40,335 bases of DNA from Coriobacteriia bacterium (lineage in GTDB: Bacteria; Actinomycetota; Coriobacteriia; Anaerosomatales; Kmv31), in the NCBI GenBank assembly GCA_014859305.1, contig JACUUM010000021.1, forward strand, positions 1-40,335, read 5' to 3'. The first letter of the stretch is position 1, and each line of letters opens with the position of its first letter. The position numbers and the translations under genes were made by a program. The notes beneath the pieces are model-generated. The model ran no database searches. It had not been told where the DNA came from and saw nothing but the letters and a program-made list of their open reading frames with translations. Positions 10,367 through 29,617 of this stretch are shown here, one piece after another.

Positions 10367-13204
10367 TTGGCGTCACGGGAGGACATAGCGCCGGCTGCTC
10401 GCGTGGAGAGGCCGTCGTACCAGGCGATGACCGAGGAGCATCTGCTCTCCTCTCTGGTGACGTCGCGCACGGGGCTGTCCTCCGACGAGGCCGCGGCACG
10501 TCTTCAGCGCTACGGCCCCAACGAGATCGCGGCGGTGAAGGGCACTCCGCTCGCGCTGCGCTTCCTCGCGAACTTCTACCACCTCTTCGCGATCCTGCTA
10601 TGGGTCGGGGCGGCGCTCGCCGTGATCGGCGGGTTGCCTGAGCTCGCCTACGCGATCGCCGCCGTCATCGTCGTCAACGCGGTCTTCTCGTTCTGGCAGG
10701 AGTACCGCGCCGAGCGGGCCACCGAGGCGCTCAAGGAGCTCATCCCCGCGCGCGCCGGCGTCTTGCGCGACGGCGCGCGCGTCGAGCTGCTCGCGCGCGA
10801 GGTGGTCCCGGGCGACGTGCTCCTCCTCGAGGAGGGCGACAACGTCCCGGCTGACGCTCGGCTGATCGAGGAGTACGACCTGCGCGTCAACCAAGCGACG
10901 CTGAACGGCGAGTCCGCGCCGGCCAGGCGCGTCGCCACCCCCGTGCCGGCCGAGCCTTCCGCTCCCACCGAGGTCGCCAGCCTCGTCTTCGCCGGCACGT
11001 CGGTCGTCTATGGCCGAGGGCGAGCCGTCGTCTTCGCGACCGGGATGGACACCGAGTTCGGCAGGATCGCCCGCCTGACGCGCTCCGTCGAAGAGGAGCT
11101 CTCGCCGCTCCAGAAGCAGATGGAGCGCATCACAAGGCTCGTCGCGCTGCTGGCGGTCTCCCTCGGCGTCGTCTTCTTCGTGCTGGGCTACTTCGTGGCC
11201 GGCCTCACGCTCATCGAGGGGTTCCTGTTCGCGGTCGGCATCATCGTCGCCAACGTGCCCGAGGGTCTCCTGCCCACCGTCACGCTGTCGCTGGCGATGG
11301 GCGTCCAGCGCATGGCGGGACGCAACGCCCTCGTCAAGCAGCTCGCCGCAGTGGAGACACTGGGGTCGACCACGGTGATCTGCACGGACAAGACGGGGAC
11401 CCTGACGGCGAACGAGATGACCGTACGCCAGGTCTGGACCGCTGAGGGGCGCGTCGAGGTACACGGCGTGGGTTACGAGCCCACGGGGCCGGTCCGCCCC
11501 TCGCTCCCGACGCTGGAGCCGCTGGCGCGCGCGGCATCGTTCTGCAACGACTCGCGGCTGGTGCCTCCCGACGACGCCCATCCGGCCTGGCGGGTGGTCG
11601 GCGACCCCACGGAAGGCGCGCTGCTGGTGATGGCACGCAAGGCCGGCTTCGATCCCGACGCCGCGCTCGAGAGCGCGCCGCGCGCCTCGGAGCTCCCCTT
11701 CGACGCCGTGCGCAAACGCATGAGCACGGTCCACGCCGAGGACGGCCGCCGCATCGCGTACGTGAAGGGCGCGCCCGCCGAGGTCCTCGGACTGTGTTCG
11801 CGCGTCCTCACGGACTCGGGCGAGCGCCCGTTGGACGAACGCGCGCGCGCCGAGGCGCTGGCCGCCAACGACGAGATGGCCCGCGGGGGGCTCCGCGTGT
11901 TGGCGATGGCGCGGCGAGAGGTGCCCGACCGGCGGCGCTACGAAGCGGCGGAGGTGGAGCGCGACCTGACCTTCCTCGGCCTCGCGGGGATGATGGACCC
12001 TCCTCGGGCAGAGGTGGCCGAGACCGTCCGCCGCGCTCACAGCGCGGGGATCCGGATCATCATGATAACCGGCGACTACGGGCTGACCGCCGAGTCGATC
12101 GCCCGCCGGATCGGCATCGTCACCAGCGAGAGGCTGCGGATCGTCATCGGGTCCGAGCTCGCTTCGATGCCCGAGGAGGAGCTGGTGGCGGCTCTTCGGG
12201 CGGGCGAGGTGCTCTTCGCGCGCGTGGCGCCGGAGCACAAGATGCGGATCGCGCAGGCTCTCAAGAAGATGGGTCACGTGGTCGCGATGACCGGCGACGG
12301 AGTGAACGACGCGCCGGCGCTGAAAGCCGCCGACATCGGCATAGCGATGGGGGTCGCGGGCACCGACGTGGCGCGCGAGGCCGCGAAGATGGTGCTTGCC
12401 GACGACAACTTCGCCTCGATCGTGTACGCGGTGGAGGAGGGGCGGGCGGTCTACGACAACATCCGGCGCTTCGTGACCTACATCTTCACGAGCAATGTGC
12501 CCGAGATCGTGCCGTTCATCCTCTTCGTGCTCTTCCGCATCCCGCTGCCGCTGACCGTGCTGCAGATCCTCGCCATCGACCTGGGGACCGACATCGTCCC
12601 CGCCCTCGCGTTGGGCGTCGAGGCGCCCGAGCCCGGCGTCATGGAGCGGCCTCCCAGACCGGCGCGCGAGCGTCTGCTCGACTCCCGCGTGCTGTCGCGC
12701 GCATACTTCTTCCTCGGACCGCTCCAGACCGCCGCGACCATGGTGGCCTACTTCTACCTCTACTACAGCCGGGGGTGGCGGCCCGGGGAGGCGCTCGCGG
12801 CGAGCGGGGTGGTGTACCTCTCGGCCACCACGATGACACTCGCGGCGGTCGTCTCGACCCAGATAGGCAACGCGTTCGCGCAGCGGACCACACGGCGCAG
12901 CATCGTCGAGGTCGGCTTCTTCTCGAACCGCCTGCTGCTGGCGGGCATCGCCACGGAAGTCGCGCTGATCCTCGGCATCGTGTACCTGCCGCCGCTGCAG
13001 GCGGTCTTCCGTACGGCGCCGCTGAGAGCGACGGACTGGCTGGTGCCGGCCGCACTCTGGCCGACGCTGCTTCTCGCCGACGAGCTGCGCAAGGCCGTCC
13101 TGCGCCGGGGTCCGCGTCCGCACTCGTCAGCGGGACGTGCGACGATGTCGGGGAATGACATGAGCGCGGGGCAACCCCCGTCCGAGGAGGCGAAGGCGAC
13201 GTGA
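10367..13204 (+). CDS. Type IIC (Na+/K+-ATPase-like) P-type cation ATPase
   Basis: 945-aa cation pump, TTG start with AGGGGGG just upstream. It has the cation-ATPase N-terminal domain, an actuator loop with LNGES (about 183), D341 in CTDKTGTLT as the phosphorylated aspartate, and TGDGVNDAP at 642-650. Transport-site segments resemble animal Na+/K+- and H+/K+-ATPases closely. They are ANVPEGLLPTVT in M4 (E299), TSNVPEIVPF in M5 (N710, E713), IDLGTDIVPA in M6 (D738, D742), and a C-terminal ADELRKAVLRR like YDEVRKLIIRR of the animal pump. SERCA-type pumps lack IDLGTD. No beta subunit is adjacent. Likely ions are Na+, K+ or H+; the direct coupling (GTGA) to TrkA-type genes favours K+/Na+ balance. 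Confidence 0.9.
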   Translation: MASREDIAPAARVERPSYQAMTEEHLLSSLVTSRTGLSSDEAAARLQRYGPNEIAAVKGTPLALRFLANFYHLFAILLWVGAALAVIGGLPELAYAIAAVIVVNAVFSFWQEYRAERATEALKELIPARAGVLRDGARVELLAREVVPGDVLLLEEGDNVPADARLIEEYDLRVNQATLNGESAPARRVATPVPAEPSAPTEVASLVFAGTSVVYGRGRAVVFATGMDTEFGRIARLTRSVEEELSPLQKQMERITRLVALLAVSLGVVFFVLGYFVAGLTLIEGFLFAVGIIVANVPEGLLPTVTLSLAMGVQRMAGRNALVKQLAAVETLGSTTVICTDKTGTLTANEMTVRQVWTAEGRVEVHGVGYEPTGPVRPSLPTLEPLARAASFCNDSRLVPPDDAHPAWRVVGDPTEGALLVMARKAGFDPDAALESAPRASELPFDAVRKRMSTVHAEDGRRIAYVKGAPAEVLGLCSRVLTDSGERPLDERARAEALAANDEMARGGLRVLAMARREVPDRRRYEAAEVERDLTFLGLAGMMDPPRAEVAETVRRAHSAGIRIIMITGDYGLTAESIARRIGIVTSERLRIVIGSELASMPEEELVAALRAGEVLFARVAPEHKMRIAQALKKMGHVVAMTGDGVNDAPALKAADIGIAMGVAGTDVAREAAKMVLADDNFASIVYAVEEGRAVYDNIRRFVTYIFTSNVPEIVPFILFVLFRIPLPLTVLQILAIDLGTDIVPALALGVEAPEPGVMERPPRPARERLLDSRVLSRAYFFLGPLQTAATMVAYFYLYYSRGWRPGEALAASGVVYLSATTMTLAAVVSTQIGNAFAQRTTRRSIVEVGFFSNRLLLAGIATEVALILGIVYLPPLQAVFRTAPLRATDWLVPAALWPTLLLADELRKAVLRRGPRPHSSAGRATMSGNDMSAGQPPSEEAKAT

Positions 13205-13848
13205 GAGTCATCATCGGAGGGTGCGGGCGCGTCGGCTCGCTGCTGGCCGCCCACCTGTCGCTCCACGGCCACGAGGTGGCCGTGGTCGACCAGGACCCTG
13301 ACTCGCTGGCCCTGCTGGCCGCCGGCTTCGCGGGCACGCGTCACGTGGGCAAGGTCTTCGACCGCGAGACGCTCGAGTCGGCCGGGGTCGCCCATGCCGA
13401 CGCATACGTCGCGGTGACGAGCGGGGACAACAGCAACATCGTCTCGGCGATCGTCGCCAAGCAGGTCTTCCGCGTCCCGCGCGTCGTCTCGCGCATATAC
13501 GACCCGCGCCGCGCCGAGATATACCGCCGCCTGGGGATACCGGCGGTCTCGTCGGTGGCGTGGTCGGTCAACGAGGTGCTCTCCGTGCTCCTCCATCCGG
13601 GCCTGACCACCGACGCCTCGTTCGGCGACGGAGAGGTGCGCCTCGTGAGCGTCGAGGTCCCGCCGCGGCTCGTCGGGCGCACGGTGGACGACCTGACCGT
13701 GCCCGGGCAGGTCGTGGTCGCGGCGATCGTACGCGCGGGACGCTCCTTCGTTCCGCTGCCGGGAACGCCGTTCGAGGAGCACGACATCGTGCACTGCGTG
13801 ACAGCGGGGCCGACTCTGGACCGGCTCGAGCAGATGCTCAGGCCCTGA
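13201..13848 (+). CDS. TrkA-type protein: NAD-binding (RCK) plus TrkA-C domain
   Basis: 215 aa, GTG start overlapping the ATPase stop (GTGA), GGAGG about 10 bases upstream. The N-terminal Rossmann domain (1-130) starts MRVIIGGCGRVGSLLA and has VAVVDQDPD, with the acidic residue that binds the NAD(H) ribose. The TrkA-C ligand-binding domain (about 140-215) includes VSVEVPPRLVGRTV and a FEEHDIVHCV close. Such proteins gate K+ uptake channels (TrkH/KtrB) in response to NAD(H) or nucleotides; some TrkA-C domains bind c-di-AMP. No trkH lies in the window, so the partner is either distant or the coupled ATPase. Confidence 0.9.
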   Translation: MRVIIGGCGRVGSLLAAHLSLHGHEVAVVDQDPDSLALLAAGFAGTRHVGKVFDRETLESAGVAHADAYVAVTSGDNSNIVSAIVAKQVFRVPRVVSRIYDPRRAEIYRRLGIPAVSSVAWSVNEVLSVLLHPGLTTDASFGDGEVRLVSVEVPPRLVGRTVDDLTVPGQVVVAAIVRAGRSFVPLPGTPFEEHDIVHCVTAGPTLDRLEQMLRP

Positions 13849-13862
13849 GGGAGGATGCGGCG

Positions 13863-14291
13863 ATGTTCGTGCTGGTGGTGGGAGGCGGCAAGCTGGGCGC
13901 CACGGTGGCGGGCTCCGCGCTCGCGGAGGGCCACGAGGTGGTCGTGATCGAGAAGGACGAGGAGCGCGCCGACGATCTGCGCGCCAGGCTCGAGGGCGCC
14001 ACCGTCATAGCCGGCGACGGCGACGAGCCCGTGATCCTCGAGCGGGGGCACGTCTCGCGCGCATCGGCCGTGCTCGCGCTGACCGGCGACGACGAGGACA
14101 ACCTCGTGGCGTGTCTGCTCGCACGGCGGGAGTACGGTGTGCCGATGACCGCCGGGCGCGTGAACGACGTGCGGAACCAGTGGCTCTTCGACGAGCGCTT
14201 CGGCGTGGACGTGGCGGTGTCCGGGACCCACCTGGCGGCCGACCTCCTCGCCGACCGGCTCGCGGAGCTCGCGTCGCGGTCGGATGCGTGA
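13863..14291 (+). CDS. TrkA-N (NAD-binding) single-domain protein
   Basis: 142 aa, ATG 14 bases after the previous stop, with GGGAGG upstream. A single Rossmann domain: MFVLVVGGGKLGATVA, VVVIEKDEERADDL and the TGDDEDNLVACLLAR helix. There is no TrkA-C domain, unlike its neighbour. Two TrkA-type genes in tandem are common for actinobacterial K+ systems (CeoB/CeoC of mycobacteria), where the two subunits act together. Here they follow the type IIC ATPase in one operon. A strong hairpin after the stop ends the unit. Confidence 0.9.
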   Translation: MFVLVVGGGKLGATVAGSALAEGHEVVVIEKDEERADDLRARLEGATVIAGDGDEPVILERGHVSRASAVLALTGDDEDNLVACLLARREYGVPMTAGRVNDVRNQWLFDERFGVDVAVSGTHLAADLLADRLAELASRSDA

Positions 14292-16124: not shown

Positions 16125-16940
16125 CTACGGCGGCATGCCCTCCCCGGCGTCCTCGCCGACCGCCGCCCCTCCACGGGCCCCCTCGGCGCGCTCGCGCTCC
16201 TCTCGGCTCAGCTGTGCGGAGAAACCCGAGGCCAGGATACCCGCGGGCAACGCGAAGAGTCCGACCCCGAGGACGGAGGTCAGCGCTCCCAGGACGCGAC
16301 CGGCGAACGTCGTCGGCAGGACGTCGGCGTTGCCCGACAGTTGCACGATCACCCACCAGACCGCCATCGGGATGCTCGTGTACCTCTCAGGCTGGGCATC
16401 GCGCTCGGCATAGTACATGAGGCTGGCGGCCACGAGCAGCAGCGACAGCAGGATCGCCAGCGCCGAGAGCAGATCGGCCTTCTTGTCCCGCATCACGGCG
16501 GACATCGCGCGAAGCGACTCGGAGTAGCGCCCCACCTTGAACACCCGCACGAACCGGAAGACGCGCAGCACCCTCAGGAAGCGCAGGTCGACGCCTACGA
16601 GCGGGACGTAGAACGGCAGCACCGCGAACATGTCCACCAGCGCCATGGGCGTCAGGGCCCACCTGACCCTGCCGACGAACGGCCTGGCGTAGCGCGGGTC
16701 CACCGACACCGACCACAGCCGCAGGAGGTACTCGACGGAGAACGCCCCGATGGTCAGGTACTCGAACGCGGTGAGCAGGGGCCGGTACGGGTCGAGCAGC
16801 CCCGGGACGGTCTCGAAGACCACCGCGGCGGTGCTCGCGAGGATGAGGGCGAGGATCACCGAGTCGACCGCGCTGCTGACGCGGTCGTCCACCGCCGCCA
16901 CCTCGAGGATGTCGTACGCGCGGCGCTTGAGCCGCTCCAT
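16125..16940 (-). CDS. Voltage-gated-type cation channel with atypical selectivity filter
   Basis: 271-aa six-helix channel of the Kv/ion_trans type. S1 is at about 25-45, S2 about 58-76, S3 about 98-114. S4 (about 120-138) carries five Arg residues and one Lys in RFLRVLRVFRFVRVFKVGR. S5 is about 158-176, the pore helix starts at SIPMAVWW (189-196) and S6 is about 213-240. Where K+ channels have TVGYGD, this protein reads LSGNAD (201-206), and the pore loop counted from WW is two residues shorter than usual. The ADVLPTT after it matches the normal GDVYPTT, so it is a real change and not a frameshift. K+ selectivity cannot be assumed. A charged, Gly-rich tail closes the protein. Confidence 0.85.
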   Translation of the reverse strand: MERLKRRAYDILEVAAVDDRVSSAVDSVILALILASTAAVVFETVPGLLDPYRPLLTAFEYLTIGAFSVEYLLRLWSVSVDPRYARPFVGRVRWALTPMALVDMFAVLPFYVPLVGVDLRFLRVLRVFRFVRVFKVGRYSESLRAMSAVMRDKKADLLSALAILLSLLLVAASLMYYAERDAQPERYTSIPMAVWWVIVQLSGNADVLPTTFAGRVLGALTSVLGVGLFALPAGILASGFSAQLSREERERAEGARGGAAVGEDAGEGMPP

Positions 16941-16997: not shown

Positions 16998-17564
16998 CTA
17001 CGGCTTGGTACCCGCTGCCATCCCGTGCCAGTCGAGACCGGGGACCGGGAGAGCGTCGGCGAAGCCCGCGCGCCGCAGCGCCGAGGCGAGATCCTCGGGC
17101 TCGATCCGCACCGAGAGCGGAGGGCCTTTCGGCGTCTCGACCGGCAGCCAATCCACCGCAAGCACCCGGCCTCCGGCCTTGGCGAGCCGGAACGCCTCGC
17201 CGTATACGGCCTCGGGATCGGACAGCTCGTGGTGGAGGTTGATCATGTACACGCCGTCCGCGACGGCGTCGGGCAGGGGCACGCGAGCCTCCTCGGACAG
17301 CACGGGGACGACACGGCCCGAGGCGACCTCGGGCCGCTTCTCCCGCATCCAGGCCAGCATCTCGGGGCTTGTGTCGACGGCGTAGACGGTGACGCCGGGC
17401 GCCATCGATGCGAACCGCGCGGCGAACATGCCGGTGCCCGCGCCGATCTCCACCAGCGTCTCGGGGTCGGTCGGCCTGAGCGCCGCCCACATCACCTCGG
17501 GCACGAGCGTCTCGAAGCGCAAAGGGTCGTCGAGCTTGGCGATCCTGGCGATGTCGAACTCCAT
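16998..17564 (-). CDS. Class I SAM-dependent methyltransferase
   Basis: 188 aa, beginning MEFDIARIAKLDDPLRFETL. VEIGAGTGMFA (about 38-48) is the SAM-binding loop, VYAVDTSPEML holds the acidic residue for the ribose, and GVYMINLHHELSDPEAV is motif II of the Methyltransf_11/25 group. Substrate unknown; relatives methylate small molecules such as ubiquinone/menaquinone precursors or arsenite, but this one has no cysteine pattern typical of ArsM. It is divergent from the pst operon and transcribed separately. Confidence 0.82.
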   Translation of the reverse strand: MEFDIARIAKLDDPLRFETLVPEVMWAALRPTDPETLVEIGAGTGMFAARFASMAPGVTVYAVDTSPEMLAWMREKRPEVASGRVVPVLSEEARVPLPDAVADGVYMINLHHELSDPEAVYGEAFRLAKAGGRVLAVDWLPVETPKGPPLSVRIEPEDLASALRRAGFADALPVPGLDWHGMAAGTKP

Positions 17565-28445: not shown

Positions 28446-29617
28446 TAGCACCCCATCCCGACGCCCTGCTCGCGCTGGAGCGCCTTGCCCTCGGTCTGTA
28501 TCGAAGGGGCGACGACGACCTCGGCCTTCTGGAAGGTCTTGAGGTTCTCGTAACCGCAGGTGGCCATGGAGGTGCGCAGGCCGCCGCACAGGTTGAGCGT
28601 GCCGTCGTTCTCTCGCGCCGGCCCGACGAGGATCTCCTCCAGCGATCCCTTGACGCCGGAGTGCACGCGCGTGCCGCGCGGCAGCTCGGGATGGAACGTG
28701 GCCATCCCCCAGTGGTAGCCGCGCCCGGGCGCCTCCGACGCGCTCGTCAGCGGCGAGCCGATCATCACGGTGTCGGCCCCGCACGCGATCGCCTTGGCCA
28801 GGTCCCCGCCGGTGCGCATGCCGCCGTCGGCGACGACGTGGCAGTAGGTGCCGGTCTCGTCGAGATGCCGCATGCGGGCCGCCGCCGCGTCGGCGATCGC
28901 GGTGCACTGCGGCACCCCGATCCCGAGCACGCGGCGTGTCGTGCAGGCATGCCCCGGTCCGACGCCCACGAGCACGCCCACGGCACCGGTGCGCATGAGG
29001 TGCAGGGCGCCGGAGTAGCTGCAGCAGCCACCGACCATGATGGGGATGTCGAGGTCACGGATGAAGGTGTTGAGGTCGAGCGGCTCGTCGTAGGAGGAGA
29101 CGTGCTCGGCGGACACGACCGTGCCCTGGATCACGAGGATGTCCAGGCCGCCCTCGAGCGCCGCCCCGATGTAGCGTTCGACGTTCTGCGGCGTGAGCGA
29201 GGCCGCCGCGAGCACGCCGCCGTCCTTGACCTCGCGCACCCGCCGGGTGATGAGCTCGGGCTTGACCGGCTCCCGGTAGATCTCCTGCATCCTCGCGGTC
29301 GCTTCCTGCTTCTCGAAGCCGGCGATGAGGTCGAGCTGCGCGCCCGCGTCCGCGTAGCGCGTCTGTATGCCCTCGAGGTTGAGCACGGCCAGCCCTCCGA
29401 GCTTGCCCATGGTGACCGCGAGGGCGGGGTCGACCACGCCGTCCATCGCAGAGGCCAGGACCGGCAGGGGGAAGGAGAACGTCTTGTCCCGGAAGGTGAA
29501 CTCCCAGTGTATGTCCACGTCTCGCGGGTCGCGCGTGCGCCGCGAGGGCACGATCGCGATATCGTCGAAACCGTAGGCTCGACGCGCCGTCTTGCCCCGT
29601 CCGATCTCCACTTCCAT
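28445..29617 (-). CDS. guaB3: GuaB3-family IMP dehydrogenase-related protein
   Basis: 390-aa IMPDH-fold barrel with no CBS domains, as in the GuaB3 group of actinobacteria and cyanobacteria. It starts [30 protein letters not shown] and [18 protein letters not shown] (C225, the position of the IMPDH catalytic cysteine) and [11 protein letters not shown] are recognisable. A canonical IMPDH has about 480-500 residues with a CBS pair inserted near residue 100. GuaB3 function was long unclear; a cyanobacterial member is reported to have IMPDH activity. Coupling to guaA supports XMP production. ATG with GGAGGAG 5 bases upstream; promoter at 29796-29824 with a 180-base structured leader. Confidence 0.93.

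Follow-up and report, generated by a model that had tools for sequence, protein, structure and literature searches.

A Kv-type channel gene from a Coriobacteriia bacterium with a shortened selectivity filter that lacks the GYG motif

K+ filters select their ion by stacked carbonyl rings that form four stacked K+ sites, and a filter with two residues fewer has lost some of these rings. Aligned with the K+ filter, the filter of CNG channels is two residues shorter, and the deletion of YG from Shaker is reportedly a precedent for a CNG-like shortening. Whole clades seldom depart from the K+ signature. A largely eukaryotic survey of Kv-like and CNBD channels found one clade with a deviating filter, the metazoan CNG channels, and it warned that the filter sequence alone does not allow selectivity to be predicted (PMC7576140). 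The metazoan CNG channels carry a TIGE filter and are nonselective (PMC10761061). Among actinobacterial channels, NaKTs has the unusual filter LPMGNGPLSP, and it is a nonselective, Ca2+-activated cation channel (PMC5052707).

The window, that is, the whole stretch of 40,335 nucleotides that was analysed, contains a channel gene with a filter of another kind. The gene and its parts are as follows.

16125..16940, minus strand: channel gene, Kv-type with six transmembrane segments and a short non-GYG filter (open reading frame, Pfam, phmmer, AlphaFold, Foldseek)
16524..16883, minus strand: voltage-sensor domain S1-S4, residues 20-139 (AlphaFold helices 20-43, 46-80, 98-115 and 120-139)
16524..16583, minus strand: S4 voltage sensor with R or K at every third residue (AlphaFold and sequence)
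16338..16373, minus strand: pore helix, residues 190-201, with W195-W196 kept (AlphaFold helix)
16314..16337, minus strand: filter strand S202-G203-N204-A205-D206-V207-L208-P209 (codons, alignment, loop length against a GYG control)
16170..16307, minus strand: S6 and C-terminal helix, residues 212-257, with the ALPAGILASGF motif (alignment, AlphaFold)

The open reading frame (16940-16125) encodes 271 amino acids from ATG to TAG without internal stops, and its start codon is preceded by a GGAGG motif. Pfam assigns the protein to Ion_trans (PF00520, E 5.8e-29) at 101.4 bits, where the cut-off is 25 bits. When the protein was compared with solved structures by phmmer, the best full-length match was Kv4.2 (E 1.5e-28); KCNQ and Kv2.1 were further best relatives over most of its length, and MlotiK1 (mll3241) was the best match to the S5-S6 pore (E 3.5e-19). 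The AlphaFold model has a mean pLDDT of 91.6 and, when used as a Foldseek query, it matched KCNQ2/KCNQ and Kv4/Kv channels. GC at the three codon positions is 0.69, 0.46 and 0.94. The third-position value is at least 0.83 in all 30-codon blocks, and therefore the filter sits in genuine coding sequence. The gene encodes an intact Kv-type relative of the voltage-gated potassium channels.

Ion_trans, six transmembrane helices and a pore helix, as in the Kv-like voltage-gated branch, are all present in the protein and its model. So are the basic periodicity of S4 and the F/E/D charge-transfer centre of that branch. The basic residues of S4 (R120, R123, R126, R129, R132, K135 and R138) are in register, and the charge-transfer residues F67, E70 and D103 are invariant in an alignment of 58 rows. 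The voltage sensor is complete, and voltage-gated behaviour is predicted. Only about 30 residues follow the S6 motif. A preliminary description of this DNA had proposed a full S1-S6 layout, an Arg-rich S4 and a frame that is intact on both sides of the filter, and the Pfam score, the model helices, the six Arg plus K135, the uninterrupted frame and its codon-position GC bear this out.

The filter codons at 16337-16314 are TCG GGC AAC GCC GAC GTC CTG CCG, which read S G N A D V L P. The pore of the relatives has the form WWxxxTLTTVGYGDVYP, and its counterpart here is WWVIVQLSGNADVLP. The filter of this protein thus reads L-S-G-N-A-D-V-L-P against L-T-T-V-G-Y-G-D-V-Y-P in the relatives, and in the alignment its loop is shorter than that of the GYG relatives by exactly two residues. 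The T-x-G-[YF]-G signature of K+-selective channels is absent from this filter, where S-G-N-A-D stands instead. In the pore helix, T200, which is nearly invariant among the relatives, is Q. To place the missing residues, a GYG relative (L085) was predicted by the same AlphaFold method as a control. Both pore helices have 12 residues and end just before S202 in this protein and T205 in L085, and the filter loop between pore helix and S6 has 10 residues here versus 12 in L085. Since the pore helices are equal and the loop is shorter, the two residues were lost from the filter strand and not from the pore helix. In the simplest alignment, T75 and V76 (KcsA numbering) are deleted, Y78 and G79 are changed to N and A, and G77 and D80 are kept. 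The replacement of GYG by GNA, a loop two residues shorter, the WW of the pore helix and a PTT after the filter (P209-T210-T211) were all named in the preliminary description, and the codons, the alignment and the paired models agree with each of them.

Our preferred reading, with a probability of about 0.6, is that the protein is a voltage-gated cation channel with weak or no K+ selectivity that arose from a shortened K+ filter. The protein would assemble as a homotetramer. Shortening the K+ filter of a prokaryotic Kv-like channel would remove two carbonyl layers of the stacked K+ sites, and the remaining filter would be shorter and wider, with a Ser/Thr ring, a Gly carbonyl and a ring of Asn (or Glu) side chains. 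Na+ and K+ would pass with little discrimination, and Ca2+ might block or permeate as in CNG channels. Opening by voltage would then drive depolarisation of the cell, not repolarisation. As GYG is replaced by GNA and the filter is two residues shorter, the pore most likely has altered or no K+ selectivity, and it probably conducts not only potassium but also sodium and other cations. By analogy with CNG channels and NaKTs, which are nonselective, it would distinguish Na+ from K+ poorly. The shortened filter might still retain enough carbonyl sites to prefer K+, as G203 and D206 are in the same relative order as G77 and D80, and some K+-permeable channels tolerate changes in the filter. However, the filter has lost two residues and has others in place of Y78 and the second Gly, and known channels with comparable changes are nonselective, so we consider a surviving K+ channel distinctly doubtful.

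Among 69 genomes of the window's order, nine have a close family member. Four of these nine members, the window's included, have a short filter: SGNADVLP in the window, SGNSVATP in two genomes of different families (one at locus L004) and TGEFTVTP in one genome (locus L009). In all four, S or T, then G, then N or E come right behind the pore helix. The other five members have a canonical filter and a C-terminal CPxCG motif, which none of the four short-filter members has. A wider set was collected by a profile scan of genome contigs, by searches at class and phylum level, and from plasmid records and viral contigs. The contig scan gave no match with a single protein as query and gave matches with the short-filter alignment. 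In total, about 135 relatives whose pore could be read were obtained from many phyla of bacteria and archaea, and 129 of them keep GYG or GFG (with L040 counted in its other frame), and therefore the filter is normally under strong constraint. Short filters are present in four of the about 135, all in the window's order. This concentration in one order gives a Fisher p of 9.5e-6, which is descriptive only because the sampling was non-random. The exact SGNAD filter was found in the window's genome only, among the relatives compared. Two more sequences, both from another actinobacterial class, have a TPIDFGL filter that is one residue shorter. These two proteins (L131 and L132, TPIDFGLKP and TPIDFGLRP) are 64% identical and keep the CPxCG tail. 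Further searches across three other actinobacterial classes gave no new short filters. Four Kv-type channels of the same family on IMG/VR contigs classed as viral (L147-L150) all have GYG. In two relatives, L138 (G596) and L040 (from a Thermincola MAG), the frame is broken in or before the pore, and the GYG of L040 is still readable in another frame.

A sequencing or frameshift artefact was considered for the short filter and was rejected, since the frame is intact and short filters occur in three other genomes of the order. The broader explanation, an assembly error or a decaying pseudogene, draws on a draft assembly of 76 contigs, on an exact filter seen in a single genome and on a long branch. 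Against it, the intact frame has a third-position GC of 0.94, a slip would require an in-frame loss of six bases plus several substitutions, and the same shortening is present in other assemblies of the order, two of which have synonymous differences and a dN/dS of 0.083. We therefore regard this explanation as very improbable. The two proteins with the SGNSVATP filter are 88% identical and do not differ across the filter. Their genes have synonymous differences, with a dS of 0.72. Their dN/dS is as low as that of two GYG pairs used for comparison (0.084 and 0.11), and thus a working protein is supported in that lineage. This SGNSVATP pair, the one pair tested, is under purifying selection. 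The protein of the window has no close relative in the set and a branch of about one change per site, which could also reflect relaxed constraint.

The preliminary description had suggested a search for similar pores and asked whether they form a clade. Similar short pores do occur in related genomes, as described above, and the trees do not unite them, nor do they reject a single clade. In a first, quick tree of 128 rows, from which the filter columns were left out, the short-filter members were scattered, with L009 beside L002 and L007 and the others elsewhere. In a tree of 59 rows, L009 grouped with GYG members with support 98/97, and the AU test on this set did not reject a single short-filter clade (p 0.28). 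A third tree set placed L009 elsewhere and gave an AU p of 0.175 for one short-filter clade. When L009 was omitted, joining the remaining three short-filter members gave p 0.53. The restriction of the short filter to one order argues for a single origin; the trees, as inferred from these alignments, lean towards several origins.

The shared order of residues in the short filters also bears on a second reading, in which a Nav/Cav-like filter is placed on a Kv scaffold. The ring of N204 (or E204) side chains would be a high-field-strength site with Na+ or Ca2+ selectivity, and [S/T]-G-[N/E] would act as the T-L-E segment of BacNav or the T-G-E segment of Cav repeats II and IV. All four short filters have the S/T-G-N/E order, and the prokaryotic Na+ and Ca2+ filters are of the T-L-E type, such as TLESW and the TLEGWVD of CavMr (PMC7041947). 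However, the sequence and fold searches gave K+-type channels including MlotiK1, Kv and KCNQ, with no Nav/Cav or TPC chains among the best 50-60 matches listed per search. Moreover, the ring residue in this protein is N and not E, and its AlphaFold model has no separate P2 helix between filter and S6. We consider this reading unlikely but a serious alternative. We would call similarly unlikely the related proposal that within one actinobacterial order a Kv-type K+ channel switched specificity, possibly repeatedly, by shortening its filter to an [S/T]-G-[N/E] ring that works like a Nav/Cav or TPC filter. If this were true, prokaryotes would have a natural voltage-gated channel for Na+ or Ca2+ without BacNav kinship.

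The deletion might instead close the pore and leave a non-conducting or accessory protein, which would work by means of its voltage sensor or modify other subunits. Both the filter and T200 of the pore helix are altered, and a short-filter protein could in principle co-assemble with GYG subunits. However, neither a second full-length family member nor a canonical sister subunit that could be its partner was found in the window's genome, S6 and its ALPAGILASGF motif are conserved, and the SGNSVATP pair has no differences in the filter. A non-conducting role thus seems rather improbable. Elsewhere in the genome, Ion_trans_2 matched one protein only, a short channel of 160 amino acids with a canonical TTGYGD filter on another contig (L145; G000 contig C29, ~28949-29182), and therefore lost K+ selectivity in the window's channel need not remove K+ channel function from the cell.

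The neighbouring genes were also examined. The gene next to the channel on its upstream side is the following.

16998..17564, minus strand: SAM methyltransferase (Pfam Methyltransf_11; position)

On the same strand, 57 bases separate its end from the downstream start of the channel gene; it is a probable operon partner of the channel, without a known link to it. The pstS and pstC genes lie past the methyltransferase. On the other side, an adjacent MFS gene is convergent with the channel gene, and beyond it are genes for two TrkA-type proteins and a cation P-type ATPase. At 10367-14291 on the plus strand, the order is the P-type ATPase followed by two consecutive single TrkA_N proteins, and the best NCBIfam scores of the ATPase, to the Ca PMR1-type and the Na,H/K type, are both below cut-off. 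In a comparison by eye, none of the window's neighbour genes was found beside the short-filter relatives, and therefore the neighbourhood gives no functional lead.

The GYG and non-GYG relatives of one bacterial order are 40-51% identical, have about 270 residues each and include a non-GYG pair under purifying selection, and together they make a small natural system. It would let one ask which residues convert a K+ pore into another pore type, and what a bacterium would gain from voltage-gated depolarisation.

Among the known systems, NaKTs from Tsukamurella paurometabola also comes from an actinobacterium and is a cation channel whose filter departs from the canonical one; it is tetrameric, as the window's protein is inferred to be. 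It differs in having two transmembrane segments, without a voltage sensor, and a proline-rich filter unlike the one here. The prokaryotic Nav and Cav channels (NavAb, with TLESW, and CavMr) are likewise voltage-gated six-transmembrane proteins with a short filter that starts with T/S-x-E/N. However, they are a separate sequence family, with none among the best 60 solved matches listed, and the T-L-E-x-W filter type is not present in the window's protein, whose filter contains neither E nor W. MlotiK1, Kv4.2 and KCNQ have a canonical K+ filter, which this protein lacks. Closer in kind are the metazoan CNG channels, which are Kv-related and have six transmembrane segments and a K+ filter two residues shorter. 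They are nonselective (PMC10761061). The window's protein shares a filter two residues shorter than TVGYGD, but a cyclic-nucleotide-binding domain is absent from its 271 residues, where Pfam lists only Ion_trans and Ion_trans_2, and in contrast to CNG channels its voltage sensor is complete. The alignments also differ, as CNG channels keep T-I-G-E and lose Y-G, whereas the best alignment of this protein loses T-V and keeps G, followed by N. The closest system is the prokaryotic Kv-like 'ion transporter' family (PF00520), whose GYG members L002, L005 and L085 are about 40-51% identical over the full length. Compared with them the filter is two residues shorter and without GYG, while the S1-S6 layout, the S4 arginines and the ALPAGILASGF motif of S6 are shared.
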